Shown piece by piece: positions 1-44,386 of a stretch of 64,000 nucleotides of DNA (the first letter of the stretch is position 1; each line of letters begins with the position of its first letter). The notes beneath the pieces are model-generated. The model was not told where the DNA came from. It was given only the letters and a program-made list of their open reading frames with translations, and did not search any database. Both the position numbers and the translations under genes were made by a program. The stretch is from assembly GCA_030407315.1 (NCBI GenBank), contig JALQPE010001709.1, positions 1 through 64,000 on the forward strand, in the 5' to 3' direction. The stretch comes from Asparagopsis taxiformis. Lineage: Eukaryota > Rhodophyta > Florideophyceae > Bonnemaisoniales > Bonnemaisoniaceae.

Positions 1-300
1 CTGACCACTACGGTGTTGAGAATGAAAACAGACAGTAAATTTACTGTCTGAGACAGTAAAAATTACTGTCTGGCCAAGACAGTGCGCGGAGACAGTAAAA
101 TTTACTGTCTGGAAATTTCAGAATACTGCTGCAGCAGTAAACTGGCACGAAATCTGGACAGTACCAAAAACAGTAAAATTTACTGTCCAGAACAGTAAAT
201 TTTACTGTCCGGAAGTGTTGCCGCCAGACAGTATGTGCAGACAGTACATTTTACTGTCTGAGACAATACATTGTACTGTATTACTGCACTGTCTGGGGAA
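1..300. repeat. ACAGTA/TACTGT palindrome array
   Basis: Short palindromes built on ACAGTAAA...TTTACTGT recur at least five times. A perfect 22-bp palindrome lies at 29-50, with near copies around 52-72, 91-109, 171-190, 191-211 and 238-262. Spacers are unrelated. The array runs off the left edge of the window. A looser array of the same hexamer lies at 55195-55505. No protein is supported here. It could be a fold-back repeat or a cluster of binding sites. Confidence 0.75.
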
Positions 301-905
301 ATCTGTAGACAGTAGTGTAGATAGCAAATTGTATTGTCTGCGGGTAGTACCGTGCATTGTTTGACAACACTGTCTGGTGGAGTGGACTTAGAGGAAATAT
401 GGAGCATAGTGTTGGTGTGAAGGTAAATATTGGAATGGTGTGTGGTATACGACTATATTAATTGTGATGGTGCTTTACAGATAGTTGGGTGCGGGGAAGC
501 TAGATGCTGAATAGGACGTTAGAAAGGAAGATTGGGAGAACAGAACATATCTGGTTTGTCTCACACGTAAGGAGAGAATGTACATAGTAGCTATAATATG
601 TTGAGTTTAGCATTTCAAATTATACCTATCTATCTTTGCATTGAAAGTGTCTAGTAGGAGACGTCAGTCTGGTAGCGAGGTGTGGTATGCACAGGACGTG
701 GGTGGTGGCAAAGGAAAGAATACGCACCATCCACCACTAAATTATGAAAAAAAACGTTACGGAGCACTGGGAAGCATTATTATTATGTAGAGTAGACCAG
801 GATGGATGCATCCACTGAAATGATATTTGCTACAACACTGCTGTACTAAGCGTGACATCCTTCAAAGCAATTCTCCTTTTAGCAAACTCCAATTGCAAGG
901 TCAAG
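301..905. other. intergenic, no gene seen
   Basis: A mixed A+T-leaning stretch without an open frame of note or a recognisable RNA gene. It probably includes the promoter of the gene starting at 906, but no clear TATA box was identified. Confidence 0.5.
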
Positions 906-2390
906 ATGAATCCCGAAAACCTCCGTAAGCATCGCCGCATTTTCCGAAATAACGCGTGAGGGCTTTTCGAACATCACTGCAGAGTTGAAAGCCCTGAGTG
1001 ATAAAATGGATGCCGTCGAGAAGAGCACCATTCAATTACGCGAGACTCTCGGAAATGTCGCCAAGACTGTCTCCATGCTAAACACCGATATGCAGGAGGT
1101 CAAGAGCATCGTCGATGGGCTTCTGAGCCAGGGACAAGGACATCCGAAGAAGATCGCCTCCGAGAAGGACAGGGAACGTCTCCGCATTGCGCAGGATGCG
1201 GAGAAATCGTTCACGTTCGAAATGGTGTGTGCTGTGCTGTGTGCTGTTGTTCCAACGTACACGAAGGCAATGGTGGATAAGAGGGATAGGCATTTCAACG
1301 GATGCCAGCTAATCAATACGCTGATGTTCGCCAGGCAGAGCAATGAGCGAAAGGATGTGTTCAATAGGACGCTTGCCGGCCGGAACCACATTGAATTGCG
1401 CTGCCAAGTTGTGACCTCTTTAATCAAGAATACGTGTCAAAACAATTCTTTCAGAGAGGGAGGAGACCGTTCCAGCTCCAATGGAACGTCGGAAGGTATC
1501 GAACGGTGGAGGGCGCGGGGGTATGTGACTACCGGGACCATTGAGGAGACAATTCGCGGAACGGACTCTGCTCGCATGGATGGAATGCATGGGACGTCCG
1601 AGGGAAGTGATGGGGCCGCTCGAAAGCAGAAGCGAAGAAAGGTTGGAGACAATGGGCCGTTGCACAGAAAGGAGGTAGGCATCACTGTGACGAAATCGGC
1701 ACTCACAGCAGTGACCGGGTTTATGAACAAGTCCAGAGATCATGTGCGAAACCGGTTCATCCGAGATCTTGGATTCGTTCTATACAGTGGGTTTCAAGGT
1801 TCAGTCCGAATGGAGCATCATTTGCACGACGGTGGCTGGACATTGAGTCAGTTCCAAGTCTGTACTCGGCGCAGAGGAAAATGAATGCAGCGGAGCGTGC
1901 AGCAATGGATGACAAGAATATGAAGATTCTTCGCGACTTCATTGCAGTGCGAAAAGAAATGCTATTCAAAGTCGAGTACGAAGTTCAAATAATTGGAGAA
2001 CCGGACAAGAGGTTTTTGACTAGGAGGATCAATTTAGTAGAGGTTGCACTGAACTTTGCAGTCGCCTACACGCAATGTTCTGATAAGAACATGTTCCTGC
2101 GACGTTCAGAATACTCCTTGCAATTCATCTACATACTTGCATACGGGTTCCGAACGATTTTGAAATTTCAAAGTGGAACAGAGGTGGAAGGAGCGCAAAT
2201 CCGGGAAATCAATGAAGCAGTGAAACTGCTTCTTCCCGGGGAGCGGGTGAGTAGTCGGTTCATGAATGAGGAGGTTTTGACTATATCGCGTGATAGATAT
2301 GAAGAACTGAACGTAGACGATGGGGGGAATCAGTGCTGGAGGAGAGCTTCAGGTCTATGGAAGAGGACGGAGGAGATGCAGAATATGTGA
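906..2390 (+). CDS. Hypothetical protein, three exons
   Basis: No family recognised. A continuous frame results if two GT-AG introns are removed: 925-982 (58 nt, GTAAGC to TGCAG) and 1675-1787 (113 nt, GTAGGC to ATACAG). Exons 906-924, 983-1674 and 1788-2390 then sum to 1314 nt, 437 residues, with phases that match exactly. The ATG at 906 begins the short first exon. The N-terminus has a heptad-like pattern (KALSDKMDAVEKS onward) suggesting a coiled coil, the middle is Gly/Ser/Arg-rich with a basic AARKQKRRKV segment that could be a nuclear signal, and the C-terminal third is helical and charged. At 2322-2327 there is a run of six G; one extra G would replace the last residues with a more plausible acidic tail ending at 2431, so the true end is uncertain. 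It converges on the gene at 2684-4067. The exon model is inference from splice sites and phase. Confidence 0.6.
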
Positions 2391-2683
2391 AGGTATTCGT
2401 CGATGATGAAATCGAGAATGAAGGGGAGTAGTATCGGATGAAACCAGTTTTCGGTGTAGTAGACGAAGAATGAAGAAATAAATTTCTGTTGAGGTGAATT
2501 TTGTAATAGATGGAAGTAGATAGGTGCGAGACATCAGGAAACCAGTCAGACGATAGTGTCAAGTCGAAGGAAGCGCAGAGACAGGTAGTGGAATAGTCGA
2601 AGTAGGAAGGGGCGAGGGTATCCGTCTTTACTAGAAATTGATGGCCACAGGAGCTCTAGAATGGAATACCCAGGAACAGGAAA

Positions 2684-4067
2684 CTACGGATAGGTGTGCT
2701 TTATCATTTTTGCTCCGGACTGCAGGTGGCAGGTGGAGGAGAGGGGTGGGTGGGTAGTGTCTGAATCCGCATTGAAGCCAAGACGAGAGATAGCCTCATA
2801 GCCAATGTCTTCAAGCTCCTGGCATATAGTAGTACCACTGAAAATACAGCAAGGTAAGCGTAGATGTAGTGTACCAAACGTCTCTCTGCGGTTGATAGAG
2901 GCTGGAAAGTGCTGTAACAAGCTCGGCGCTGAATACGTCTCCACAGTAACGAAAACGTTGCTCCATAAGTAACAGTAGCCTTATCACGTAGGTGGAAAGA
3001 GTCCACGATGCTAGACTGTGATAGTTGGCTAAGACATAGGGGATGTAAAAATGTATTGTTGACATGGTCAAACTCGTAGGAGTCTCTGCAAAGAACTGTC
3101 ATACGTTGGTCTGGGCTGGACAGGACGTAAGCAGATGAGCCGACGAGAAATGCGGAAGAAGGAGCATCATGAGAGCAGTCAACGTCGACTAGATTTCCTA
3201 AAATTCGGACAATCGATGAGCTGCCTCCATCGCGTTCCGCCCTGCTCTTCACCAATATTTTCTGGAACCCGTGTTGCGAGGTACCTATGGAGTCACATAG
3301 TGCCTGAAAGGTGGGGAAAATGATGGAAAGATCCGACTCATTTCCAGAGGAAAGGTGATGTCCTCAAAGGACGGCAGGAAGAGAACATCACGATTCTCTT
3401 TCGCCTTGCATTGAATGGCAATAGTGCGGAATTGAGCAAGGGAGCAGTCAGCCTGTACTCTGATTTCTTCTTGCGATGTTTGTCGCATTCCCCTGGAGTG
3501 CTCGGATTTTGTCATCCGGAGGGAGAGGGGCTTGTCCGTGTACACACCAAGCTTCTGAAACAGAATGCTACATACAGTCAGAGCAGAGGAGGTCATGGAG
3601 CTGTTGGAATCGAATGGAGGGGGAAGAGGATGTTTGGCAGCTGACTCCAGCTTTTCCAATCTTGCCAGCATTTCTGCTATGGTCTTCTTCATTTGATCCG
3701 CAGTGCAATCTTGAAGGATGCCGCGGTGGCGGTGGCGAGTGTGGTCAATGCCGTAGTCCGGGTCTCTCTCTGCTGGGGATGCAGGTGAGTCCATACTGCG
3801 AAGCTCACCACTTCGCCACGGGAGAACCCTTCCGGAATCCTTGTCGACGAGCTCGTTACGATCTGAAATCTTGACTTGAGAAAGGGTAGAGTCGAAACCA
3901 TATTCAGCTTTGTATTCGAGCAATGCATGGAGGAATGGGTCTGTTTCGGTCTTGACCTGAGTAATTTCCTTGACGATTGCAGACCACCACACAATTTTTC
4001 GTTTCCTCCCAAACGGCCGAAGTTCCCATTGAACTTCTATAACGTCGTTTGGAGCGAGAGGAAGCAT
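2684..4067 (-). CDS. Hypothetical protein, four exons
   Basis: Not a recognised family. Reading on the minus strand, exons 4067-3576, 3303-3105, 3028-2875 and 2837-2684 join in phase to 999 nt (332 residues). Introns are 3575-3304 (272 nt, GTATGT to a strong pyrimidine tract and CAG), 3104-3029 (76 nt, GTATGA to TTAG) and 2874-2838 (37 nt, GTACAC to TTTCAG; the weakest, because very short). The first 80 residues alternate hydrophobic and charged positions, with VIEVQWELRPFG, IVWWSAIVKEI and a later LPWRSGE. This pattern is reminiscent of small beta-barrel (Tudor/PWWP-like) folds, but that is only a resemblance. Later exons are Leu/Tyr-rich. The start ATG at 4067 is 513 bp from the divergent start of the methyltransferase gene, so the two could share a promoter region. 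Confidence 0.55.
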
Positions 4068-4580
4068 GTTGGGATAGCTATGGGATAGAATTGTTGTATT
4101 AGTGAAAGCCTAACCGTTACCTTCTGCTAAAGAGTAGTATATACTAGGAGGATTGGAAAGGTCCAGAAGAGATGTTTAGGTGGTGTAGAAATAGAATGGA
4201 CAATTGACAAAATTGACACGTCAGTGTGGATGATGTCTGCCATGAACTGATTGCAGCATAAAATTTGATGTGAATAATCGTTCTAGAAGTGAATGTCGGA
4301 TGCATACGATTGGACTACAAAGATACGCTTAGAGATGTTACGGGGCCCAATAAATTGCATGGAAAAATATTTTGAGTATTACTTTAGTATTACATTGATT
4401 ATTGAGCTAACAGTCGATGTAGTTATCTTGTAAAGGTTCGGACAGGGGTGGAAAGGAAACAGCCACCGAAGTGCTACCACTCGCTGACACTTTGTTTTAA
4501 ACAACCAACTTCTGCTTTGCGCCACCCTGGTCAAGCAGCAACCAACTATCCCTTTCTTAAAAACTCTACCTTTGTTCGCC
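4068..4580. promoter_or_regulatory. Shared upstream region of divergent genes
   Basis: This 513-bp gap separates the starts of the minus-strand gene at 4067 and the plus-strand gene at 4581. It contains no credible open frame. A palindromic AGTATATACT lies near 4136-4145. A role as bidirectional promoter is inferred from position only. Confidence 0.35.
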
Positions 4581-7500
4581 ATGGAAGGAACGTTCCACAA
4601 TCACGGTGAAAAGCACGACGGATGGGTGTTCATCGACCCCAATCAAGTCAGCAAATTCGTATCGATTCGCGATGTTGATGCAAGTCATGTGGAAGCGCTC
4701 ATGGAGAGCATTCGCAACAGCGGTTATGACACAGCTCATCCCGTGACTGGCAGGTTTCGAGAAGGCGTTCTGGAGATATTGGATGGAGCGCACCGCTGCA
4801 TGGCAATTGTACGTGGAATGGAGAAGGGCGTCTTTCCTCCTGGCGTTACGATTCCTATGCGAGAAGAGTCTATCGTGGCGGACACCAACAGCAGTACTGC
4901 TGTTGTGCTGGACCGTGTGAGAGCGACGACATCCAACGACATTGCAGGCCTGCAAAGGCGCATGATGTTTGTTGAGTATCTGATGATCGCCGTTGATCTC
5001 AGAGACGAGTACTGGGTCCAAAAAGGAAAGGACAAGTACGCTCATATTTCGTCTGTGAGGATGGCCGATGTGTTGGGCTGGATCAAGTCCTGCGATCCAA
5101 GCGGCCAAATTGCTTCAAGCCTGAGTGGTAAACCGCAGTACAGCTCATGCATGTCTATCCTGGCTGTGCTTCGGCCGTATCACCGAGCAGAAGATTCGAG
5201 TGCGATTGATTTGCGTCTGTGGCAAATGTTTTGTCATGCATGGGGACTCAATGCAGAGATGGGTGATTCTCCGAGGATGGTTGAGTTTCCGAAACAGGTG
5301 GGGGTGACTAGTTCTCGTGCCGTCGAAATGTTTGGCAAGACACCCCGCGGAGAATTGTCCTCTCCACTGAACCGCGAACTGCTTTCGAGCAGGTACTTTC
5401 TAGACGGCGCTACATCCGACATGCAAGATTCTTTGCAGGCTAGCCAGAAGCGGTTCAGGAGGCTGATGGTTATGATGTGCCAGTGTATCTTGGCTATTCG
5501 CAGTAAGGAGATGGGCAGTGCGCCATCTAGGCGGGCCAGAGCCACATCCGGGGACATTGGTGGTGGTGGAATGGTTGGAATTGCAACATCCAGTGCGCAA
5601 GCCAACCAGCTTGGATTTGTTGTCGACCGTGTGTTAGCTGCGTGGGATACCGGGGCAAGAGTGTTGGGGTATGAGGATGTTGAATCGATGTGCTGGCCGT
5701 TCATGGTATTCGATCCTGCGAGCCTTTGCTTCAGGTCACTCCCGAATCGGTCTGATGGCTGCGCGGTCGAGGAGCATCGGAAAAACCTGACCATTGTCCC
5801 GAAAACTGTAGACAGTGAAAACGGGTTCTGTGCCGACCTTCCAGTGGCTGTGGATGCAAGGCTGCGATCATTGACAAGCGCCTTCCTGCTGTCGATACGC
5901 CAATGTGTCACTGAGGTGAATGTGTTCGCCGAGCGTGGTCAGCTGATGCAGAGACTTCGAGCCTTGCTTTTCGACACTCCTGACAAGTTCGGATTGAACT
6001 CGTTCATGCGAGCCAAGTTGAACACGTCTCATGCCCTGGATGGTCAGAGGAGGCTGAAGGCTTGGTTATTGCGAACCCGAGAGCAACGAAAGCTTCCTCT
6101 GACCATGGATGAGTTGCACAGTCTTGAGGATACGCCCGAGCCTGGCATCCTTGAAGGTGCACCTGCGCAGATGGAAATATCCGCAGCAGTGCCAAACAAT
6201 GGCAGCGAGGATATAGAAGAGGATAGTCTGGAGCCACAGAGGAAGAAGGCTAGGCTGGAGCGCGGTGGTGGAGAGGACGATAATGCGGCGGTTGCTAGCG
6301 AAACAGCAACAAGAGAAGGTGCGGCCGAGGATGACGCTATGGAGGTTGACACTGTATCGCCTACAGAAGCACCGCTCGTTGACGTCGGAAAGGAATCCAA
6401 GCCGGAATATGTCACCAAGCTGGAAGCTGTGATGGGGCGTTACATTCACACTGTGAATTGTGACGCCACTGATGTAGCCAAAGAGGTGGAGGACAAAATT
6501 AGTTTCCTGGAAGATAGCGTGTTGGAGGACAGTGTTCAGCTTGTGCTCACTGATCCTCCATTCAACACGAGGCGGGAAGGCGGCAGAGAAAACTCGGAGT
6601 ACGATATTCTGGAGCCGGAAGAGTTGGCGAGTGTTGCGTGTGAAATAGTTCGAGTTCTTCGGCCTGGCGGTCATGCTCTAATCTATTCCAGCGTGCGCCA
6701 ACTCGTGGCATGGATGGATGCAATCAGAAATGCCGAGCCTGGCAAGATGATTGTGGACAGTGTTCCAGTCGTGCTATCTCGCCGACCACACAGCTTTACG
6801 TCCAATCCATCGACGAAAACGTGCACACTGCATAATATGCACGATTTCGTTATCCATGCGTATAAGCGGGGGAAGGGTATGGCTGCATACGATATGGTGG
6901 ATTACAGGTTGCACAATCCGGACATATCGAGGCACCCTGGGTTCACCAACGCGATTGACAACGTTCCGAGGTTGTCGGCTGGTGAAGCTCAATACGATGG
7001 GCAGAACAACCGACTGCGCCATGAGCAGAAGGCGTTGACCACTCTTCGTGAGCTTCTGGAACGATTTTCGAAGCAGAACGATATCGTGATGGATTTCTTC
7101 TCGGGAACATACAGCACAGCCATAGCGTGTATGACGTTGAGGGATGGTACGTATCGTCGGTTCATTGGGTGTGAGAAGGAAAAAAGGTGCCACGATGCAT
7201 CGCAGGAGTGGATACTGCATGCTTTCGTCAGTGAGGTGAAAGCCGGGCGATATGGGGGGATCTTGCAGCGTGAGGTGGAGAGTATTCTTGGGGACGAGTC
7301 GGTACCGGTCACAGGAAAAGCTCCAAGGCTTCGTCAGAAGCACATCTCAGATGCACCAGAAGGTTTACCTGCTGTGACAGCATTGCCGAACCATCTGCTT
7401 GTGTTCGTTGCGTCAATGAAGAAGGACGGTTCTATGCTTCACAGATTGAGCGGGGTGCCTATGGACCAGTGGCCGGCCGAGGACATGCACTCGTTTTGGA

Positions 7501-8048
7501 GCATAGACCCGGACGCGATTCTGGCTGCTGATGCCGCATTCTACGGTGTCTATGTTTCGCAATCGGAGGTAAGAGGTGGTGGGTTTGGCGTATTCGCGGC
7601 GAAGAAACTGAAGAAGGGGACGGTCATTGGCTGGTACAACGGGACGATTTTCTATGCGAAGATTCGAGACTCGGAACCGCAGAGATCAGTGATGTACGGC
7701 CCGGAAGGATTTGGGTGCACAGGACAGAGGTTCCAGGACTACAACATGGAATTGGAAACCACGTACATAGGGAGGGGTGCACCTGTTCGGAAGGTCTGGC
7801 TCGTTCCAGCGGTCTATAATTGTACCAGCTACCTCAATGATTGTCGGGTCATTGACGGAACGGAGAAAGCGACCGAGGTGAGTCGAACACAGTCAGCCGA
7901 GTTTCGACAAGGCGATGCCATAGACAAACCGGACTTTGCTTCGAATATCAAGAATCCCCATGCTGTCAAGGTCGTTCTGACCAGAGACGTTGAAGCTGAT
8001 GAGGAGATATTTGCTGACTATGGTAGAAAATATTGGCCAGCTAACTGA
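4581..8048 (+). CDS. ParB-like / DNA amino-methyltransferase / SET fusion protein
   Basis: A single uninterrupted frame of 1155 residues; the ATG at 4581 sits in a good context (GCCATGG) and no intron is needed. Residues about 18-85 look like a ParB/Srx-type domain (FIDPNQV, then ILDGAHR in place of the usual DGxHR). Residues about 555-600 are acidic after a basic RKKARLER stretch, a possible nuclear signal. At about 640-870 lies a methyltransferase: TDPPFN at D658 is catalytic motif IV, and DFFSGTYSTA at D838 is the AdoMet-binding motif I. Motif IV before motif I is the circular order of beta-class N4-cytosine/N6-adenine DNA methylases. Residues about 987-1155 form a SET domain, with GGGFGVFAAKKLKKG, YLNDCR and the closing EEIFADYGRKYW. 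ParB-like domains preceding such methylases are common in phages and prophages, so the front two thirds may be of bacterial or phage origin, with SET added in a eukaryote. A role in coupling DNA methylation to histone methylation is inference. The region between 90 and 540 is unassigned. Confidence 0.88.
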   Translation: MEGTFHNHGEKHDGWVFIDPNQVSKFVSIRDVDASHVEALMESIRNSGYDTAHPVTGRFREGVLEILDGAHRCMAIVRGMEKGVFPPGVTIPMREESIVADTNSSTAVVLDRVRATTSNDIAGLQRRMMFVEYLMIAVDLRDEYWVQKGKDKYAHISSVRMADVLGWIKSCDPSGQIASSLSGKPQYSSCMSILAVLRPYHRAEDSSAIDLRLWQMFCHAWGLNAEMGDSPRMVEFPKQVGVTSSRAVEMFGKTPRGELSSPLNRELLSSRYFLDGATSDMQDSLQASQKRFRRLMVMMCQCILAIRSKEMGSAPSRRARATSGDIGGGGMVGIATSSAQANQLGFVVDRVLAAWDTGARVLGYEDVESMCWPFMVFDPASLCFRSLPNRSDGCAVEEHRKNLTIVPKTVDSENGFCADLPVAVDARLRSLTSAFLLSIRQCVTEVNVFAERGQLMQRLRALLFDTPDKFGLNSFMRAKLNTSHALDGQRRLKAWLLRTREQRKLPLTMDELHSLEDTPEPGILEGAPAQMEISAAVPNNGSEDIEEDSLEPQRKKARLERGGGEDDNAAVASETATREGAAEDDAMEVDTVSPTEAPLVDVGKESKPEYVTKLEAVMGRYIHTVNCDATDVAKEVEDKISFLEDSVLEDSVQLVLTDPPFNTRREGGRENSEYDILEPEELASVACEIVRVLRPGGHALIYSSVRQLVAWMDAIRNAEPGKMIVDSVPVVLSRRPHSFTSNPSTKTCTLHNMHDFVIHAYKRGKGMAAYDMVDYRLHNPDISRHPGFTNAIDNVPRLSAGEAQYDGQNNRLRHEQKALTTLRELLERFSKQNDIVMDFFSGTYSTAIACMTLRDGTYRRFIGCEKEKRCHDASQEWILHAFVSEVKAGRYGGILQREVESILGDESVPVTGKAPRLRQKHISDAPEGLPAVTALPNHLLVFVASMKKDGSMLHRLSGVPMDQWPAEDMHSFWSIDPDAILAADAAFYGVYVSQSEVRGGGFGVFAAKKLKKGTVIGWYNGTIFYAKIRDSEPQRSVMYGPEGFGCTGQRFQDYNMELETTYIGRGAPVRKVWLVPAVYNCTSYLNDCRVIDGTEKATEVSRTQSAEFRQGDAIDKPDFASNIKNPHAVKVVLTRDVEADEEIFADYGRKYWPAN

Positions 8049-8335
8049 GCTACTTTGATAGATTTGAGTAAACACGCATTGACAGAGACAATAGACTGTG
8101 CATCATCTTCCAAGAGCGCTAGATATTATAGACTACACTACAACAATCGTGACATGACTGCAGGAAGGCATCTGCGGCCTGGAGTGCAAACTATCCACTT
8201 TTCAACTGCTATACCTATGGATACGAAAGGGAGAGAAACTAGAAAGATGTGAGTGCGAAATTGTGTAGCAACGCAGCATGTAGAACACCAGTAACAGAGC
8301 GATGTAGGAGAAGCAGTCACCCCATTACAGTGCGG
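8049..8335. other. 3' flank of the methyltransferase gene
   Basis: No gene or repeat recognised between the stop codon and the palindrome block. It should contain the 3' UTR of the upstream gene. Confidence 0.4.
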
Positions 8336-8773
8336 GCCGTTTACCGGGGATGCTGACAGCAAAGTCATCGTTACGATGACTTTGCTGTAAGAAAACAAAT
8401 CATTACAGCAGCCATGATTTCTTTACCGGGTAAAAAATTGTGGCCGCTGTAATGAAACGTTTTCTTACAGCAAAGTCATCGTAACGATGACTTTGCTGTA
8501 AGAAAGCAAAACATTACAGCGGCCACAATTTTTTACCCGGTAAAATTTCTTGCTGATTTTTTACCCGGTAAAAAATTCTTTGGCCACTGCAAGGAAACGG
8601 TTCCTTACAGCAAAGTCATCGTTACGATGACTTTGCTGTAAGAAAACGTTTCATTACAGCGGCCACAATTTTTTTACCCGGTAAAGAAATCGTGGCTGCT
8701 GTAATGATTTGTTTTCTTACAGCAAAGTCATCGTAACGATGACTTTGCTGTAAGGAACCCTGGTAAACGGCTT
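8336..8773. repeat. Nested long palindrome (fold-back element)
   Basis: The segment 8336-8503 is largely the reverse complement of 8605-8773, leaving a centre of about 100 bp. The outer ends match (GCCGTTTACC near the left edge and GGTAAACGGC at the right). Inside each arm are two smaller hairpins of CTTACAGCAAAGTCATCG facing its complement, near 8355-8391, 8466-8503, 8605-8642 and 8716-8753. Their central base alternates T, A, T, A as expected for mirrored arms. TTTACCCGGTAAA palindromes sit between them. No coding capacity. Structure suggests a fold-back or MITE-like element able to form a cruciform. Confidence 0.85.
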
Positions 8774-8783
8774 CAGCTGTAAG

Positions 8784-8861
8784 CAGCAGGGAGTTTCGTC
8801 CTTCTCCCTTCTTGGTAAAGGTACCTTTACCAAGATGGGAGAAGGACGAAACTCCCTGCTG
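8784..8861. repeat. 78-bp hairpin
   Basis: CAGCAGGGAGTTTCGTCCTT and its complement face each other with about one mismatch around a perfect GGTAAAGGTACCTTTACC centre. It follows directly on the nested palindrome but has unrelated sequence. Confidence 0.85.
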
Positions 8862-8945
8862 TCTCACATGAGAAGCGAAGTGTGAAGTAGGGAACATCAC
8901 GGGAGGATGGTTTGGACGGCTGTTGGTCGCAAAATCTACTCCTTG

Positions 8946-9035
8946 TGCCGTGAGCCACAGCGACCATATGGTACCTGTGCCTCACGGCATAAAATATATA
9001 TTCAACCCGCCCGGGCGGGAACCGGCGCCGGTTCC
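8946..9035. repeat. Three further adjacent palindromes
   Basis: An imperfect hairpin with arms TGCCGTGAGCCACAG and CTGTGCCTCACGGCA lies at 8946-8989 around ACCATATGGT. Perfect palindromes CCCGCCCGGGCGGG (9006-9019) and GGAACCGGCGCCGGTTCC (9018-9035) follow and overlap by two bases. The cluster ends about 100 bp before the 6.3-kb repeat. Confidence 0.8.
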
Positions 9036-9785
9036 GGTGCACTATAGTCGTCAATAAGTAGGACTCTAGCTACTCACTATACAACTATAATCGTAAGGTA
9101 GGATAGCCTAAGATCGTAGTACGGAAGAGACGGATGGGTCGCGCCGTGTCGCGTCGTAAATTTGCACAGAAAATTTGTTTCAAATCTTTGCTCCAATTAT
9201 CAGCTCAAATACGGCATTGATCTCCAGCTTCATCTGGACAGAAACACCGATCGCTCGATGTCTGTCTCAAATAAACCGCAGTCAAACGCCATGCGGAAAG
9301 TTTCATCGCTTCCCGTTGCGACTGAATCTGCAAACGCCACACAAAAATTTGCCCTTTCCGCGTCCGGAACGAACGCCGACTACATGTCGTCAGGTTCCTG
9401 ATCGACTGGATCGATGGAGCTTGCTCTGCAGGAGAGCAGGACAGGCGGTTTGTTATGCCTGGACAATTTCCATACCGATCTCCCTTCTTGAGTGCAAAAT
9501 TACGAGTCTAGAAATTGACCTGCATCGGCTGCTGTATCACATCTGTGCTAAGGATTGATGATACCCGTACCGCTGAGAAATTGCAGCTCTGGTAACGTGG
9601 GGATGATGTGCTGAACACGCAGAACGCTGATCCATAATGGGACTGCTTCATAGGCATAGTACGGAATGTATTGAGACAGCCCAAGCGAATTCAGGAGGGA
9701 GCACCAGGGCAGTGCGCGGTGACTCAGCAGATACCAGTGGTGAGTGGTCTAAATGGGGCTACACACGAGTTTGTCAATGAACAGT

Positions 9786-10139: not shown

Positions 10140-10371
10140 GGCTAGCTTGTCTGCTGGGCGACTGGACGGTATTGGCGTACGATGAAGCGGGACTGGTGGT
10201 GTTTAAATGACATTTTTTGTTTGAAGATGGATGTATGTGTGCGACTAGAATGTAGTAAGAGCATGAAAATGTTTATGTTTGATGGGCGTCGCATGTTGGG
10301 GGACTTTATGTCGTGTGGGGCAATAATGTCTCAGGTATTTGAAGCAGACAGCAATCGCTTGAGCGCATATA

Positions 10372-12462
10372 GACGTCCGGTGAATGACCAGCGCAATTGC
10401 ATTGCTGGCGAGCCCAGAAATTCTAAAATTTCAGTCAGAAAAAAAATGCAAAAATACATCGATTTGGGCGGTCGAAAGTGCCGTACGGCACACCCCCATC
10501 TCAAAAACATGTTCACATGTGCATGTTTTTGAGAATAGCCCAAAAAATAAAGCAATTCAGGACGTCCGCCGGACATAGGCTTGATTCTAATTTGGCCACA
10601 ACGGCCCCAGAAGCTACCAAGCGCCCCGAGCGGCCCCTCCCCGCTCACTTACCCACTCACGCTGTTCAGCTTGGACGCTCACTGGAAGTACTCGTCTTCG
10701 ACATCCGCCAATGCAGGACAACACCATGAATACTAAACCCACCGTGGATCTCAGTCATCAACGGTGGGCGTCCTATAAATGACTGCTATAGAACCATTGT
10801 CCCAAGCCCTCCAATTTGGACGCTCAGCCAACAGCGATTGCTGCTCTACCTCCTTGGTCGTTCTCCGATGCATGTAAATGCGTCAAAGTACGACCGATGG
10901 GGCAGTCCAAATTTTTTGCACCAGTGCACGCCTAGGGATACCACAAGGTTCGTCGTGCACACACAAACACACAAACAACCACGCACTGCAGCACCCAACT
11001 TTCGCATGCGTCAGTGATGTGCTGCTGCAGTGTGTATGCGCCGTGCGGTAGCAAGATTTCCATGCTTGCAGCCATTGACATCCAGACATCCAGCTGCCGA
11101 CCAGGGAAGCCGTTTGCAGCCGATTCCCTCTTGTCTGCATGGCATCTCGGTGCTCTCAACACTTGCTTAGTTGCTGCGATGCGAGCAAATGTGCAGCACT
11201 AGCCTAACTTGAAATGGACGTCCAGTGGAAGTCCGCCTCGGTTACATTGCTGGTCAGCCCTGAAATTCTAAAATGTTGGGCTGAGAAATAGCTGCAAAAC
11301 TGTATCCATGTGCAATACTCGACCAACCTGAAATGGACGTCCGGTGAATGTCCATCTCAATTGCATTGCTGGCGAGCCCAGAAATTCTAAAATTTCAGTC
11401 AGAAAAAAAATTGCAAAATTATATCGATTTGGGAGGTCGAAAGTGCCGTACGGCACACCCCCATCTCAAAAACATGTTCACATGTGCATGTTTTTGAGAA
11501 TAGCCCAAATTTCAATTCAAATCAAGGTGTCTAATCTGGCCACAACGGCCCCAGAAGAAGCCATCCGACGCCCCGAGCGGGGCCATCGCTGGCTTCTGTA
11601 AGCACCAACTGTAAGCAAAGCCACATCTCACGAAGGATCGATTCCAGGCTCAGGCTCAATACGCCAGGGCGAAGTTTTGGTCCTTGTTTCGACATGCTCC
11701 CACCCCACTTTCTCACGACAAACACTGCTCATCCATCATGCTGCCCATGCTACGTGCACTTTGTATGAGTAGTGAGCCCGCCTGCTTAGTTGCTGCAATG
11801 CATGGATGTGGGCAGCACACGACCAACCTGAAATGGACGTCCGGTGGATGTCCAGCTTGATTGCACTGCTGGCCAGCCCAGAAATTCTAAAATTTCGGGC
11901 AGAAAAAAATTGTGAAAAATCATCGATTTGGGCGGGTCGATTGTGCCGTACGGCAGACCCCCATCTCAAAAACATGTTCACATGTGCATGTTTTTGAGAA
12001 TAGCCCAAATTTCAATTCAAATCAAGGTGTCTAATTTGGCCACAACGGCCCCAGGAACCGGCTGCCGCCCCGACCGGGGTCATCACTGGCTTCTGTAAGC
12101 ACCAACTGTAAGCCAAAATCGCGTCTTACGAAGGGTCGATTTCAGGCTCAACACGTCAGGGACATGTCTTGGTCCTTGTTTCATCATGTTCCCGCCCCAC
12201 TCTCTCACGACCAACCTGAAATGGACGTCCGGTGGATGTCCAGCTCGATTGCATTGCTGGCCAGCCCAGAAATTCTAAAATTTCCGAAAAATCAATTTGG
12301 TGGCCCAGCATCTCCTGTGCCGAAAAATCCCGCGCTCACTTCTGATGTACGTCTAGACGTGTTTCGCACTTGTACGCATCAGAGAAGGCCTCACGGAAGG
12401 TTGAGACTACGCTATTTGTGTACCGCGTCGTCTGAGATAGCGAGTAGAGTTTGTTGTATAGT
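10372..12462. repeat. 2.1-kb block with multiple 270-bp units
   Basis: Units begin near TGGACGTCCGGTG and contain CCCAGAAATTCTAAAATTTC, GTGCCGTACGGCA, a hairpin with arms CTCAAAAACATG and CATGTTTTTGAG (first at 10500-10533), GGCCACAACGGCCCCAG and a final CTGTAAGCACCAACTGTAAGC. Full or partial units start near 10372, 11205, 11330, 11822 and 12211. The same block occurs a third time in the window at 52589-54678, with breakpoints exactly here, so it behaves as a separate repeat unit inside the 6.3-kb repeat. No convincing protein. Confidence 0.75.
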
Positions 12463-13012
12463 ATTTATATTGTATTCCAAATGTGCGTTCGAGACCTCGT
12501 TTGTAATGTTCTCGTGGTTTTGTGGGTATCAGTTTTGTGCTCACTTCTGGCAGCCCAATGGTGGAATGTGCCTGAGCGATCAATCATCACCGCTAGGTCA
12601 CACATTTTGCTGGCAACGTGCGCTTGGAAGGACGAATGACCGCCGTGGGAGATGGATTTTCAATTAATTCATTTGAAATAATAAAATTATATTAACTGCG
12701 AACTTCATGGAATAAGTTTGTGCTTTACAGTGGATATTACAGGGATCATTTAAGGGAAGCAAATGGATTGTGATATATATGATTATACCATTCCGATGTT
12801 CTCGATCCGGATCTCATCATTCGGGAGTTCAGAGACCATGGCTTGGGCCATTATTAATCTCAATACCGGCGATGATATGGAGTATGCACAGCAGGACTTA
12901 AGCTGACGTTGAAAGCTGTCCAGTCGACGCCGCAGGTTAATCTGTGGAGTTCCACTTCTCCGCCGTCACTGGCTGAGGTTCTTTGGTCGTGTTTCCTTTG
13001 TTTGGTGTAGAG

Positions 13013-14585
13013 GATAGAACGACGGTGAGTATGCCAGTTTGGAGAGTATGCAGCGAGGGAAGCGTGTGTTTTGAGTCGTACTGTTGTCGTTGATGCGATA
13101 TTGATTCATTAGAAGCTTCGTGAGTCGTGGTTTGCATGTTGTGAACCATGGGAGGCAGGTAAGTAAGTTAGTCTCGCGGGTGTGCAATAAGGGATGCATG
13201 GGTTTTTAGTCTGACTGTTCTGGTTCATTTTGATGTTGTATAGGTGGTGCAGGAATAGTGATGAAGTAAGGTAAGTTTCATTGAGCTGAAAGACGGGTTT
13301 CGCGATGAAATGGAATGCTGACTACATTTTTTCGTTGCACGATTTGTGAATTATTGGTTGTATTGTTTGTATGATGCAACGAGATGAAGAGGTTAAGTGC
13401 GTCCTGAGGGTATGAAGCGAGGGAAGTGTTTGTTTTAAATTTGACTGTCGTCTTTTATGCAATATTTATTTATTGGGAGCTTAGTGAGTCATGGTGCATA
13501 TTTGCTGAAGGGTGGAAGGGAGGTAGGCGAGCATTTGAGGGGTGCAGTGAGTGGAATGTGGGTTTTGAGTCTGACTGCTGTGGTTGATGTTGATTTTGTG
13601 TAGGTGATTCTGGAATGGTGATGACGGAAGGTAAGTTACATTGAGCGCCTAGTTAAGTTGCGCGAAGATATGGAATGCTGACTACATTTTTTTGTACAAT
13701 TTTTGACTTATGGTTTCTATTGTGTGCAGGATACAACGAGGGTAAGTAAGTTCTGAGGGTATGCAGCGAGGGAAGCATGGGTTTTCAGTCCGACTGTTGT
13801 TGTTGATTTCGATTTTTTGTAGGTGATGCAGGAATGGTGATGACGGAAGGTAAGTTGCATTTAGCGTGCAGTCCGGTGGTGCGAAGATGCGGAATGTTGA
13901 CTTCATTTGTTGGTTGTGAGATTTTCGACTTTTGGTCTGTATTGTGTGTAGAATGAAACGAGAGTAAGTGAGTTCTGAGGGTATGCATCGAGAGAAGTGT
14001 TTGTTTCGAATCTGACTATTGCAGTTAATGCGATATTTATTCATTGGAAGCTTATCCAGTCATGGTGCGTATTGTGTCGAGCGAAGGAAAGTGCGGAAGT
14101 TTTGAGAGTATGCTGAGAGGGACATGTGGGTTTTGAGTCCGACTGTTGTGGTTGATTTCGATTTTATGCAGGTGATGCTGGAATGGTGATGACAGAAGGT
14201 AAGTTTCATTGAGCGCCAAGACTTGTTTTGCGAAGATATGGACTGCTGACTTTGATTATTCATTGCAAGGTTTTTGGATCATGGTTTGTATTGTGTGTAG
14301 GATCGATGAGAGGTAAGTAAGGGATTTTCTAAGATATCTGGCGTGGTAAGCGTTGCTTTTGAATCTGACTGTTGGGGTTGATGTTGTGTATGTGATGCAG
14401 GAGTGGTGAAGCAGGAACGGCAGGACTCAGGGAGAGTGAAGAAGGGATCTAGGAAGATGGGGAATGAAGCTGTGAGGTGTTTCTGGTATGTGTATATTTT
14501 CAGGCATACGATAGAAGTAAGAGTGGGTTTCAAGTCGTGTAAGATTTTGCTGACCATGTTCGTGTTTCATGTCTTGATGATTTAA
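13013..14585 (+). other. Train of 12- and 27-nt exon-like blocks
   Basis: Blocks of exactly 27 nt (13244-13270, 13604-13630, 13823-13849, 14172-14198; consensus begins GTGATGCAGGAATGG) alternate with blocks of exactly 12 nt (13013-13024, 13730-13741, 13952-13963, 14301-14312). Each is preceded by a YAG acceptor after a T-rich tract and followed by GTAAGT or GTGAGT. Gaps are about 80-100 nt, with one longer interval. Joined in phase, several blocks stay open (DAGMVMTEG, then GYNEG or GSMRG). The last block reads on, in the same phase, into an open stretch to a stop at 14585. Three blocks contain a stop in that phase (13244, 13013, 13952), so the train looks partly decayed. It could be the remains of a repetitive micro-exon gene or tandem repeats that keep splice signals. 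The 6.2-kb copy at 45751-47323 carries it in mirror image. Confidence 0.45.
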
Positions 14586-14760
14586 TGGGCTGGGGTGGTG
14601 TCGAGGAAAGCGGGGATGGTATTGGGAAGGAGCAGATTTTTTGTAATCTAGGTCGTGAGGGTTCTTGAAGTATGTGCGGATGGTGGTGCATGGCGTTCGG
14701 ATGGTAGGGAGAACGCGATAGTGAGGGAGATGGGTGATCGACGGTATGCTGACAGGTATT

Positions 14761-14892
14761 TTGTATTCTGGCTGGATACGTATTCCATATTCTAGCTGGA
14801 TACATATTCCGTATCCTGGCTTGATACGTATTTCCTATTCTAACCGGGTATTTATTTCCTATTCTGACCAGATATGTATTTCCTATTCTAGA
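14761..14892. repeat. 24-bp minisatellite
   Basis: About six copies of a unit like TATTCTGGCTGGATACGTATTCC follow head to tail. The unit is a multiple of three and leaves a frame open (repeats of about eight residues such as YSGWIRIP), but coding is not supported otherwise. Confidence 0.7.
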
Positions 14893-15014
14893 GAGACGTA
14901 TTGTATACGAGCAGTTTCGTAAATGAGAGAATAAAATACGGTCCGATATGGGCCCTTAATTTACCATCCGCTGTAATTTCTTCCCTCCGGGTTTTTGCTG
15001 ATATATTGTATACT

Positions 15015-15314
15015 GGATGTCGGGTCCTAGTATCCGGCCAAACGTACTAGAAAAACTGGATGTCGGGTCCTAGTACTCCGCCAAACGTACTAGAGAAAGT
15101 GGATGTCGGGTCCTAGTATTCCGCCGAACGTACTAGAGAAAGTGGATGTCGGGTCCTAGGATCCCGCTGAATGTACTAGAGAAATTGGATGTCGGGTCCT
15201 AGTATTCCGCTGAATGTACTAGAGAAATTGGATGTCGGGTCCTAGTATTCCGCCGAACGTACTAGAGAAAGTGGATGTCGGGTCCTAGTATTCCGCCGAA
15301 CGTACTAGAGAAAG
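15015..15314. repeat. 43-bp tandem array, seven copies
   Basis: Seven copies of a unit beginning TGGATGTCGGGTCCTAGTAT and containing CGAACGTACTAGAGAAA. The mirrored copy at 45148-45325 has four. The array lies about 130 bp inside the inner end of the 6.3-kb repeat, as subterminal arrays often do in DNA transposons. Confidence 0.85.
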
Positions 15315-15447
15315 TGGACGTCCGCATCCAAAAAATTTTTATTTTTTTTCGGACGCGGACGTTCATTTGTTCTAGTAAATCTCGGGGCCGACTAGGACCC
15401 GTACTAGAGAGACTGGACGTCCGCGTCCACTTCCGAAAACACAGACG

Positions 15448-22279: not shown

Positions 22280-23218
22280 ATGACGCAACCGCCGCGCGAA
22301 AGACCGCCTCCGTTACCACCCGAAACAGTGGTCCTGTTTCAGACCCCTACCGCGAACTATAAACTCGAGATACGCGTCGGATATAATCTACGCACGGCCA
22401 CCGCGGTGACCGCTGTGCTTGATACCGGCGCGGGCCCGAGCCTCATTCGCGAGAACGTATTAGGCGCTGATTGGAAGCGCCACGCCACGCCGCCGACGCT
22501 GCGTTGCGCGATTATCGACGCGAATGGACGACGCCTCGCGCCGAACGCGTCGTTGCGACGTAGCGTTCTTCTAGGTGCCCGCGCGCACCCTCAAACTTTC
22601 CTGGTGATGCCGCGCTTATCCGTCCCTTGCATTCTGGGAGCAGACTTCATCGACCGTGTGGTTCGGATGATCTATACTGGGCCGCAGCGCGCGTTGCGAA
22701 CCCGCTATGGAGACCACGTTCCAATGCTCCCACGCACGCCGACGAAACCGCGCCGCGCACCGACCCCCAAGACTACCCGACCAACAGATTTCGCACCAAT
22801 CCGCGTTGCGCGTCGCACGTCGATTCCGCCGCACGCGACACGAGCTATCGAAGTCACCACGGGCGCTGACGGACGCTGCATTACGATACCCGCGACCGAC
22901 CTCTATGGGCAGAAGTTGCTTCGTCTAGCCAACGGTGAAACGCAGGTTAAAAGGAACGTGCCCTTCAGTGTGCACGTGCACAACGCCGGCACCCGCCTAC
23001 AGGTATTGCCCAAAGGCATGAAGGTGGGCGCCGCCGTGCCCAACCCCGTAGGTTGCCTACAAGTTTCACAAGAGGCACCGACCCCGCAAGACCGACCGCC
23101 CGACGATGCAACGCCACGCAACGCGACGAACCCGCCGGACCCGCGCGAAACCGACGGGATTGCGAACGCGACACCGACGGGATTGCGAACGCGACGCCGC
23201 ACTGGGAAGACCTCTTAG
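22280..23218 (+). CDS. Aspartic protease, gypsy element
   Basis: A 312-residue frame with the retropepsin active site VLDTGAGPSLIR near residue 50 and the later flap-side motif CILGADFID. It lies in a different frame from Gag and from Pol. It overlaps the open part of the Pol frame from 23106, so Pol would need a +1 (or -2) shift or reinitiation. A 23-bp sequence (CCGACGGGATTGCGAACGCG...) is tandemly duplicated at about 23153-23199, exactly in the overlap, and may have altered the original frame relation. Confidence 0.85.
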   Translation: MTQPPRERPPPLPPETVVLFQTPTANYKLEIRVGYNLRTATAVTAVLDTGAGPSLIRENVLGADWKRHATPPTLRCAIIDANGRRLAPNASLRRSVLLGARAHPQTFLVMPRLSVPCILGADFIDRVVRMIYTGPQRALRTRYGDHVPMLPRTPTKPRRAPTPKTTRPTDFAPIRVARRTSIPPHATRAIEVTTGADGRCITIPATDLYGQKLLRLANGETQVKRNVPFSVHVHNAGTRLQVLPKGMKVGAAVPNPVGCLQVSQEAPTPQDRPPDDATPRNATNPPDPRETDGIANATPTGLRTRRRTGKTS

Positions 23219-26200
23219 CGCGACGCTACGCGATGAGCGAGTAGACGACGACCTACACGCGCGAATTATCGAGATGCTGCGAAAGCACGAGCGAATGTGG
23301 AATGGCACACTTGGAGCCATCCACGCGACAGAACACCGCATCGAACTGGTTCCGGGGGCGGCCCCCGTCAACCAACCGCCGTACCGCGCCGGACACGCGT
23401 CGCGCGAAATTATCCGTACGCAAGTGGATAAGATGCTCCGCGCTGGAGTGATCGAACCTGCTACATCGGAATGGGCAAGCCCGGTCGTAGTCGTACCCAA
23501 GAAGGACGGGACTTCCCGCTTCTGCATCGACTATCGCCGCTTAAACGCCGCTACCGTGAAGGACGCGTATCCGATTCCGCGCATGGACGATTGCGTCGAC
23601 TCGCTCGGTAACGCGATGGTCTTCACTACGCTGGACTGCAATTCGGGATACTGGCAAATCCCGGTAGCGCACGCCGACCGCGATAAGACTACGTTTACGT
23701 CGCATGTTGGTACGTATCGCTTCCGCCGTATGCCCTTTGGACTATCGAACGCGCCCGCGACGTTTCAGCGCGCGCTCGATATCTTGCTCGCGAACGTGAA
23801 ATGGCAGCATTGCCTTGTCTACTTGGATGACGTAATCATCTTCTCCGCCGACGCGAATGCACACGTGCATCACGTCGACGAGATACTGGGAATCCTCGGA
23901 CGCGCTGGCGTTTCGCTTAAATTCGCAAAGACCGAGTTCTTCAAACGCTCAGTGGACTACCTGGGACATACTATTTCGCCGGGGAAGCTATCCGTACCGA
24001 CGACGAAATGCGACGCGCTACGCGATGCGACGTACCCGACGACGAAAACGCAACTGCGCAGCTTCCTGGGGACGTGCAACGTATACCGCCGATTCGTTGA
24101 AAAATTCGCGTTCGTAGCAGCGCCGCTTACGCAGCTGTTGAAGAAGGACCAAGGAGATAACCTACCCGCGCCGACGCCCGAGCAAACGCGCGCGTTCGAG
24201 TCATTGCGACAAGCGATGCTATCTCCACCTATCCTTCGTCTACCGCGCGAAGGGCACCCGTATGTGCTCGACACCGACGCGTCGCAAGGCCAAATCGGGT
24301 GCGCGTTACTACAGTTAGACGCCGACGACGACGTATTACATCCAGTCGGATACTGGTCGCGCACGCTTAACGACGCGGAGCGTAATTACTCGACGACGGA
24401 ACGCGAATGCCTCGCAGTGGTATGGGCTGTGTTACTATTACGCGCATATCTAGAAGGACGGAAGTTCACGGTTCGCACGGACCATAATTCGCTGCGCTGG
24501 ATTCTAAATATGACCTCCGCGGAAGGACGACTCGCGCGCTGGCGATTGCGACTCGCCGAGTTCGAGTTCGACGTCGAATATAAAAAGGGTAAACGCCATG
24601 TTATCGCCGACGCGCTCTCGCGAATGGCCACGCGAAGCGGCGAAGAGACGGAAATACCGGACGAGATACCCTGCTTCGGCGCCGCGAACATCGTCGAACC
24701 GCACGCGGACGCTTACGTTCGAGCCGACGCCGCGCTACTATGCGACTACGCCGAATATTATCCTAGCCTGGATTGTCTGCTGACATCTCGAGCATGTATC
24801 GAACCACCCGTATCCGCTGACGAGTGGATACGCGAGCAGGCTCCGGACGAGTTCTGCCAGAACGCAAAACGCGACGTCGAAACCGCGCCGCGATCGCGTT
24901 TTCACCTATCCCCCGATGGGATTCTCATGAGGACCGCTCCGCTCGACAACGCCACGCAGATAGTCGTTCCCGAAGCGATTAAGGGGCGTATTCTGCGAGC
25001 TAACCACTACGCGGTAACTGCAGGACACCCGGGCGCGCGACGCATGTACGACGCAATTCGACGTGCATACTACTGGCCGATGATGAGCGTAGACGTCTAC
25101 ACTACAGTGAGACAGTGCGACGCGTGCGCACGTAATCGCGTTACGCAGTATCGCCACACGAACGCCCTGAAGCTCTTTCCCGCAACGCGCCCGCTCGAAG
25201 ACGTCGCCATCGATATTCTGGGTCCGCTACCCGAGACTCCGCGCCAACGCCGCTTCGTACTCGTAATCGCCGATCGCTATAGCAAGCTTTGCCGACTCAT
25301 CGCGCTCGGACGCGTATCTGCGCTCGCCGTCGCGAAGGCCTTTTGCAGAGACTGGGTCTTTGTATACGGACCGCCGCGCACGCTGCTTTCTGACAACGGA
25401 CCGCAGTTTCGCTCGAAGATATTTCAGGAAACGTGCGCGCTTATGGGAACGCGAAACATATTCACGACGACGTATCATCCGCAATCGAACGGACAAGTCG
25501 AGCGAATGAATCGTACCATCGTCGCGACGCTGCGCCATTACGTCGACGAAGAGCGAAAGGACTGGGATGAGCATTTGGATGCGCTAGCATACGCCTACAA
25601 TCGCGCGATACACCGCTCGACGAATACGTCGCCGTTCGAGCTTACGCTCATGCGCTACCCTGTGTCGCTGGGTACGGAACAAGTGGACACGATTCGCAGT
25701 ACGCCATTCCTTCGTATGGAATTCCTAGCGCGGCTATCAGACGCCTACGCGCGCGCGGCGAACGCGTTGAAGAAGGCGCAAGCGCGATATAAACGGGACT
25801 TCGCCCGCAGTGTACGCGCGGTGAATAAGGATATTAAGGCGGGTGACCAAGTGTACTTGGATATCCGCGCGGGAGCGACGACGCAAGCGCAGCGAAGTGA
25901 AGAGACGCGGGCATCGAAACTGGATTACCCCGTCTCTGGCCCTTTCCCCGTAATAGGTTGTCATGGCCATACTTACGAAATCGTAATAGACGGCGTACCC
26001 GAACTCGTTAGCTCCGATCGTATCCGCTTCGCGCCGCGTGATGCGACAAGCGCGCCTGATTCGCCCGGCGGCGAGGAAGATACCAACGACGCGGAGAACG
26101 CCGACGACGCGACACGGCGGGACGAACGCGACTTCGATAACACGCGCAAGGTCAACCCGGAGTCAGAGTACGGGGCGCGCGAATTTATGATCGACAAACT

Positions 26201-35213: not shown

Positions 35214-35395
35214 CTGACACGTTATCCTTACAGAGGCCATCCGTTACAGCCATACCTAGTCCGAAAAGGCTTAACGCACAAGTAAACACGGCATTACCGT
35301 ATGGCCTACCTCCCAACATATCGTTGGAAAAGTACGAACAAGGAAGTGTGTCCTATCTGCCCGCCTGGAATTACAAAGGGACCGCGAAAATTTGA

Positions 35396-44000: not shown

Positions 44001-44386
44001 CTTATGTGCGTGACGTAGCGTCGGAAGAACTACGGTATGCGTCCTCCGGTCATTCAGCTGCAAACACTGCCCAATATGTGGAGCACATGCCCGTCGACTC
44101 GAGTAATATTCTGACTGTATACGTGAGTTGTAGAGATTTGAACGATGCGTAGTCGGCGGATTGTATATCATGGGACCTTGGCACCGGAGAACAAGTCAAG
44201 CATGGACGCGCTGTTGTTGACGAGGCTACTGATAATGGGTTCCAGCTTTCTTGCGAACAGCTGAGTTACGCCGTGGAAGCTGTCATAGGTGGTGTTTCGA
44301 ATACAATCGGCACGCTGGAAAACCGTGCCTACCATACATTGCACATACGCAAACGGAGTGAATTATGCGAGATGACGACGTTCTAA
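41041..44386 (+). pseudogene. NB-ARC/WD40 (STAND) gene, decayed
   Basis: The frame at 41412-42515 carries NB-ARC landmarks: Walker B LLFIFDDFW, the sensor-like LLISTRSKNIA, GLPL as CAGLPLALAIAG and an MHD-like LRVHDLVHD. No P-loop is recognisable upstream, where the frame is broken. It continues past a TAG at 42513, shifts frame in a poly-T near 42576, reads a helical linker to a TAG at 42878 and then a WD40 propeller (42884-44152) with blades such as GHLVLLDVASEHITKIWKAH and HLLASASWDHTMRFWNS. Past a TAG at 44150 the frame stays open to 44386. STAND proteins of this type act as intracellular sensors in immunity or cell death; this copy cannot bind nucleotide normally. A homologous WD40 region lies at 60663-62239. 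Confidence 0.82.

Follow-up and report, generated by a model that had tools for sequence, protein, structure and literature searches.

Accessory proteins that combine a ParB-like domain with an N4/N6 DNA methylase have already been described for algal transposons, and the giant EnSpm elements of red algae carry accessory genes (PMC12477816; this and the other papers cited here are drawn on in part of their text). In Chondrus, such giant EnSpm elements measure 16–20 kb and contain 4–5 open reading frames (ORFs) (PMC6431247). In Phytophthora, HarbingerS and MuDR elements contain a gene for a SET histone methylase, and fungal transposons, EnSpm included, carry TET/JBP genes that are thought to counter silencing (PMC12730594). 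In bdelloid rotifers, a bacterial-type amino-methylase is joined with a chromodomain in the protein N4CMT (PMC8885841). Here, we analyzed a stretch of 64,000 nucleotides from the red alga Asparagopsis taxiformis (contig JALQPE010001709.1; the whole stretch is called the window below), which harbors a gene of 1155 codons encoding a ParB-like domain, a DNA amino-methylase and a SET domain in one protein. The gene is carried by a giant DNA transposon of the CACTA type that is present in many copies.

The earlier note on this DNA had described one intact frame uniting these three domains, and both parts of that description hold. The frame is open in all 30 copies (the window's among them) that were fetched from the assembly (141.5 Mb, 3156 contigs), with 0–2 bases different from the window, and its product contains, from the N- to the C-terminus, a domain of the ParB/sulfiredoxin fold, a beta-class amino-methylase and a SET domain. 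The methylase part matches the Pfam family PF01555 (N6_N4_Mtase) with an E-value of 2.3e-16 (60.9 bits against a cut-off of 26.7). Its DPPF-type motif TDPPFN precedes the S-adenosylmethionine motif DFFSGT, which is the motif order of the beta class, and the nearest enzyme types are the N6-adenine methylases CcrM, MboIIA and HpyAVI. This bacterial-type domain would probably add a methyl group to N6 of adenine or to N4 of cytosine. The SET domain likewise exceeds the curated Pfam cut-off (4.2e-6; 27.6 versus 22.4 bits), so that the separate profile searches bear out the note for both enzymatic parts. For the ParB part, the fold assignment stands and a Pfam match does not, as ParB_N gave no match in the protein at E ≤ 10; this domain and the helical region that follows it would probably bind DNA.

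For a closer view of the C-terminal domain, the SET sequences of the window protein, of the two relatives P0002 and P0003 and of a further locus of the same genome, L057, were aligned. While the latter three are just 25–55% identical to the SET sequence of the window protein, the GxG and YxG motifs, one asparagine and the final Tyr-Gly are invariant across all four. A profile built from the four sequences matches EZH2 (5.6e-7), KMT5A (3.3e-6) and MLL-type enzymes (from 2.4e-5) and also resembles the EHMT2 type, with no clear favourite among them, and both ends of the domain align with solved SET enzymes. By these features of its sequence the C-terminal domain is a SET domain, which would probably methylate lysine on histones or on another protein.

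Comparison with the other copies places the gene in a large repeated unit. Sequence shared with the window extends on both sides of the gene in the other 29 of the 30 fetched copies, and in three copies traced further to the left the similarity ends at window position 6, where the 13-bp sequence CACTACGGTGTTG starts. The copy on contig C1569, element A, spans 26,546 bp, carries CACTACGGTGTTG as terminal inverted repeat at both ends, with the right end CAACACCGTAGTG at position 87757, and has the CACTA...TAGTG termini of CACTA-type transposons. Like the left end, the right end of element A is densely populated with the subterminal GACAGT/ACTGTC motif. Genome-wide, a 30-mer of the left end has 331 sites at ≤1 mismatch and a 24-mer of the right end has 1056 sites, with no site for the reversed control of the former or the control of the latter. 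Among the 39 other full-length gene copies, 30 have a listed left end 4576–4583 bp upstream of the gene (exactly 4579 bp in 26); of the remaining nine, six lie beyond the matches listed, two are close to the end of their contig, and in one the transposon end is a variant. Because of this fixed spacing, a host or domesticated gene was ruled out, and the involvement of mobile elements that the earlier note had suspected is supported, the gene itself being transposon cargo.

In element A, the ORFs encode, in this order, proteins of 508 aa (amino acids; + strand), 453 aa (−), 1155 aa (+), 770 and 624 aa (both −), 1086 aa (−) and 1267 aa (−). The 770-aa and 624-aa frames resemble the two halves of their 1086-aa neighbor with 35% and 34% identity (the frames at 10140–12452 and 11912–13786 were searched separately and unjoined), and a protein search with the 1086-aa protein returned only a 100% copy. 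In these proteins the N-terminus is ParB-like (see below). The 1267-aa ORF is a candidate for the transposase because of where it lies, how large it is and its CxxC motif (CHIC by eye, with a His-containing stretch further on); CACTA/EnSpm-type (CMC) elements are characterized by a DDE transposase with C(2)C and H(3–4)H motifs.

The element is present in many copies. The 40 best-scoring of 548 candidate gene copies, the window's included, are full-length and ~100% identical, and near-identical best copies together with the high copy number mark the element as recently active. A search of the genome with the methylase-family profile scored 150 of 2605 candidates, all 150 of which match. The SET profile search scored 150 of 1661 candidates and separated 10 strong matches (E ≤ 2.6e-11), which are presumably of host type, from 140 weak ones (9.8e-7 to 4.3e-6). 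In eight of these 140, a methylase match of the same orientation immediately precedes the SET match (C23, C67, C178, C266, C279, C306, C1862 and C2225). The one pair among the eight that was read, L057 on C1862, has methylase and SET within a single frame; by its sequence, a second subfamily of high copy number has thus retained the SET domain too. This abundance bears on the question whether the protein might serve self-restraint or the silencing of competitors, in that repressive DNA marks and heterochromatin-type lysine marks limit the copies of the element or shut off related ones. A repressive mark is compatible with the SET profile, given its resemblance to EZH2, KMT5A, MLL and EHMT2 types alike, and cross-family silencing would be useful where several related subfamilies occur at high copy in the same genome. 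Strong self-silencing, however, would not lead one to expect the recent amplification seen in 40 near-identical scored copies and 331 left ends, and we consider this explanation rather unlikely. Since copies with an intact gene have spread recently, a benefit to the element is weakly favored over self-silencing.

The relatives P0002 to P0004 and further loci of this genome bear on the history of the fusion. P0002 (1169 aa), a full-length relative, matches with 43% identity over 99% of the length and shows the identical domain order. P0003 (1180 aa) shows 38% identity over 46% and, by alignment, a DGAHR N-terminus; P0004 (742 aa) shows 31% over 45%; a second round of protein search added nothing to these. 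Both P0002 (2.2e-5) and P0003 (7.1e-5) pass the Pfam SET cut-off. That two adjacent genes were merely joined by an assembly error or a chance open frame is refuted by the 30 intact frames out of 30 and by the independent relative P0002, and we regard such an artefact as having next to no probability. In the same genome, the loci L001, L003, L004 and L056 encode the methylase with no Pfam SET match at E ≤ 10, and these genes too occur in several copies. A ParB-like motif (DGMHR or DGEHR) is visible by eye in L003 and L056, which at L056 161–3364 and L003 1–2691 encode proteins with ParB-like part and methylase but no Pfam SET; the C-terminus of L056 appears by eye as a cysteine-rich, zinc-finger-like tail. 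In a midpoint-rooted tree of the methylase domain with 7 algal-type rows (P0002 to P0004 being labelled so by kinship) and 29 prokaryotic rows hand-picked for spread out of 80 (none of them discarded because of stop codons), the algal-type sequences form one clade (99/98), within which the five that carry a SET domain or a remnant of one group in a single subclade (100/99) that excludes L056 and L003. Because the SET-bearing proteins are one clade separate from the SET-less methylases, the tree fits a single capture of SET in a transposon lineage that already held ParB and methylase.

The tree did not lead to a phage or bacterial source. The earlier note had called the methylase phage-derived, and this was not supported: searches of phages, IMG/VR and prokaryote genomes gave no specific source, and no specific prokaryotic sister of the seven algal-type methylases appeared among the 29 prokaryotic rows. 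The window protein matched 5 phage records with ~24–25% identity over 20–21% of its length. The methylase of the sister family L056 matched 24 phage records at 24–47%, the higher values over short stretches only. In IMG/VR, 5 loci matched at 25–40% within residues 550–706. Against prokaryotes, the L056 methylase shows 22–29% identity when nearly full-length; this pattern search (alignment A5, first row L056) matched at least 589 stretches, of which 242 were confirmed and the best 80 kept.

The right half of the element contains a candidate recognition site. The 39-bp near-palindrome CTTACAGCAAAGTCATCGTTACGATGACTTTGCTGTAAG occurs in the window at no site beyond the four given in Table 1 at ≤3 mismatches, and element A carries 18 copies in three clusters (8.35–9.6, 14.0–15.1 and 19.3–19.8 kb), each of them intergenic. 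These copies have 0–3 mismatches, with none at 4–13 in a wide-limit scan, and variable flanks. Its 31-bp core has 8354 exact copies genome-wide, the reversed control none. The near-palindrome could be a recognition site of one of the ParB-like proteins, a hairpin at transcript ends or a site for the transposase. Two paralogous genes of the element (L047 874–4134 and L040 652–4367) also begin with a ParB-like N-terminus, recognized by eye from DGSHR, and their C-terminal parts share an invariant HxD and later His, again by eye. We tentatively read this C-terminal part as an iron-dependent oxygenase; for this second ParB gene type Pfam and PDB gave nothing useful, and phrogs was silent for the L040 frames. 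One might imagine that the ParB module recognizes the 31–39-bp palindromes in the way ParB recognizes parS, is loaded there and spreads, that the methylase and SET parts fused to it mark the DNA and the histones of the element in a paired fashion, and that the other ParB-fused genes, oxygenase-like by motif alone, remove such marks, giving the element its own set of writer and eraser on its DNA; we consider this extended scheme quite doubtful.

Dense inverted repeats at both ends and palindrome clusters between the genes of the right half would also suit a role in controlling transposition. Dam times the transposition of Tn10/IS10 to after replication. In a similar manner, the methylase might mark the transposon ends or the palindromes and thereby restrict the action of the transposase to the time after replication, with SET modifying the transposase or a chromatin partner, and the closeness of the methylase to the N6-adenine enzymes CcrM, MboIIA and HpyAVI agrees with this. 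Such a role does not simply explain the SET domain, however, and appears unlikely to us.

The window copy itself was compared with element A, to which positions 6–9138 are 99.7% identical. The 1155-codon gene differs by 2 substitutions and no indels, whereas both genes to its left are broken by indels, be they assembly errors or real. The right-hand genes of element A, represented by L040, L047 and L049, match the window solely in the palindrome block at 8.3–8.9 kb (E ≤ 1e-10). Since the shared sequence is lost at 9138 and these genes are unmatched, the copy in the window is truncated or interrupted, while its methylase-SET gene is intact.

Taken together, we lean towards the explanation that the 1155-codon protein is a self-marking accessory factor, although we would stop a little short of giving it an even chance. 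The ParB part would guide the enzyme to the DNA of the transposon, with the clusters of the 39-bp palindrome as possible landing sites; there the methylase would write a DNA mark (6mA or 4mC) and the SET domain a chromatin mark on lysine, both on the element's own copies, and the paired marks would keep these copies from being silenced. The sequences show the domain anatomy, the transposon, its recent spread and the retention of catalytic motifs, and from there we infer DNA binding by the ParB part, targeting, chemistry, substrate and direction of the effect. The proposal follows a precedent, as ParB-methylases of algal transposons have been proposed to mark their own element (PMC12477816), and it is supported by the indel-free state of the methylase-SET gene in a copy in which both left neighbors have indels. 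If the enzyme is active, a single mobile-element protein could deposit a non-standard mark on DNA together with a lysine mark at one site. One could then test directly whether transposons can set up their own epigenetic state and whether sequence guides the deposition of 6mA or 4mC in this algal lineage. Such a mark could readily be sought in long reads, given the high copy number and the conserved palindromes.

Several observations weigh against the picture of a self-marking transposon protein. At the level of the element, the window copy is the sole one of 30 to leave the shared sequence at 9138, and Pfam yields nothing for the 1267-aa transposase candidate at E ≤ 10. Target-site flanks are TA/TA in element A, TT/TA and GT/TT in two others (three presumed elements, the end pairing in the two beside element A being assumed from position), where a target-site duplication of 2–5 bp in the wider group and of 3 bp in EnSpm is described (PMC12730594). 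The near-palindrome is absent from the 3.3–3.7 kb loci L001–L008, L056 and L057, of which L056 and L057 extend just slightly beyond the gene. In the largest class of equal-scoring methylase matches (78 rows at 65.6 bits, comprising more than one subfamily), an open frame reaches ≥1155 codons in just 46 of the 78 rows. At the level of the protein, Pfam ParB_N detects none of the transposon copies genome-wide, its sole match being a 290-aa frame on C1526, and L057 has no ParB-like match. The AlphaFold model of the whole protein is of poor quality (mean pLDDT 40.5, SET region <50). All four aligned SETs carry ND in place of canonical NHS, and the SET of P0004 stays below the cut-off (0.0078) and lacks the final DYG. 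NHS, like the motif names GxG and YxG, is standard for SET enzymes.

The SET findings would also suit a passenger, that is, a domain captured once which has lost lysine-methylase activity and serves folding or protein binding, with ParB and methylase alone being of importance. Besides the ND motif and P0004, the low Pfam score and the multi-copy state of the methylase genes L001, L003, L004 and L056 that have no Pfam SET point in this direction. The invariance of GxG, YxG, Asn and the final Tyr in four sequences this divergent and the match of both ends of the domain to solved SET enzymes speak against it, and we hold a mere passenger to be improbable.

Table 1. Features of the transposon copy in the window (positions of the window)
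Feature	Position	Strand	Remark
Left part of giant CACTA-type transposon	6..9138	+	29/30 fetched copies extend past 9138, window copy does not
Left terminal inverted repeat CACTACGGTGTTG	6..18	+	13 bp common to right end of element A
Subterminal GACAGT/ACTGTC inverted repeats	30..380	.	Candidate transposase binding sites
Counterpart of the element's 508-aa ORF	906..2431	+	Split by 1-base indels (299 aa + 169 aa)
Counterpart of the element's 453-aa ORF	2704..4067	-	Split by small indels (183 aa + 260 aa)
ParB-methylase-SET gene	4581..8048	+	Single intact frame, 1155 codons
ParB/sulfiredoxin-fold domain	4614..4883	+	Residues ~12-101, with DGAHR
Beta-class DNA amino-methylase domain	6534..7205	+	Residues 652-875, TDPPFN ... 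DFFSGT
SET domain	7581..8024	+	Residues 1001-1148; GGGFGVFA, YNG, ND, EIFADYG
Four copies of the 39-bp near-palindrome CTTACAGCAAAGTCATCGTTACGATGACTTTGCTGTAAG	8353..8754	.	Candidate cis-acting site

Copies of the transposon family also lie within or directly beside each other on three contigs, which hints at insertion into their own kind: the copy on C788 seems to be interrupted by the left end of another family copy (nested insertion), on C272, left ends that point in opposite directions are separated by 3.4 kb, and an inverted partial copy lies to the left of element A on C1569. Further along the window, positions 22280–26747 hold retrotransposon genes (protease, reverse transcriptase, RNase H, integrase and chromodomain), which we take to be of the Ty3/Gypsy type and which sit in a block at 16–32 kb with 56–63% G+C compared to 43–53% around it. 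A second, similar retrotransposon (gag, reverse transcriptase, RNase H and integrase zinc finger) occupies 33024–38494. At 41412–44152 an NB-ARC ATPase frame is followed by a WD40-repeat frame, possibly an NLR-like host gene, and at 56085–57377 a methyltransferase domain is joined with an R3H domain. Two tandem arrays, with units of 24 bp (14757–14900) and 43 bp (14971–15365), adjoin each other at 14757–15365. Elsewhere in the assembly, contig C469 carries rbcL, the best solved relative of which is 8bdb (presumably from Griffithsia), with adjoining frames that by eye resemble rbcS, trxA and rpl28; this gene set is of the red-algal plastid type.

In the literature searched, we found no report of a triple ParB-methylase-SET fusion; the red algal work of Petroll 2025, which lay outside this scope, may contain it. 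The earlier note's claim that no protein with this order had been described hence holds for the triple fusion in that literature and not for its first two parts, since ParB together with an N4/N6 methylase in algal transposons is published. Likened by description, prokaryotic ParB-methylases (e.g. Bce_0392, PMC5512222) share the ParB/sulfiredoxin domain and the amino-methylase with the window protein but have no SET in the part of the source consulted. N4CMT of rotifers, the solved structure of which is among the fold matches of the window methylase, similarly joins an amino-methylase to a eukaryotic chromatin domain; it differs in being a host gene with introns and not transposon cargo, in having a chromodomain (a reader) rather than SET (a writer), and in that the consulted part of its description mentions no ParB (PMC8885841). 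Fungal TET/JBP transposons carry DNA-modification cargo as well, but their enzymes erase 5mC and are not DNA methylases, and the HarbingerS and MuDR elements of Phytophthora combine a DNA transposon with SET as found here, but belong to other superfamilies, a fusion with ParB or a DNA methylase being unmentioned in the same portion of text (PMC12730594). With the giant EnSpm/CACTA elements of red algae, element A shares the CACTA-type ends, the very large size and several cargo genes, and at 26.5 kb it exceeds the 16–20 kb of those from Chondrus (PMC6431247); the consulted parts of the descriptions of these elements name no functions for their cargo. Like the ParB-methylases of algal transposons, the window gene unites both domains in one gene inside a DNA transposon. 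The protein of Sola1-1_Ec32 from Ectocarpus (1104 aa) likewise combines two prokaryote-type domains in a large algal DNA transposon, is encoded on the strand opposite to the transposase (here, the candidate) and has been proposed to bind and mark its own element; that element is Sola-1 and not CACTA-type, and SET, extra ParB-like genes and palindrome clusters go unmentioned in the part of its description consulted (PMC12477816). Relative to the literature searched, what is new is thus confined to the SET domain and the larger element around the gene.

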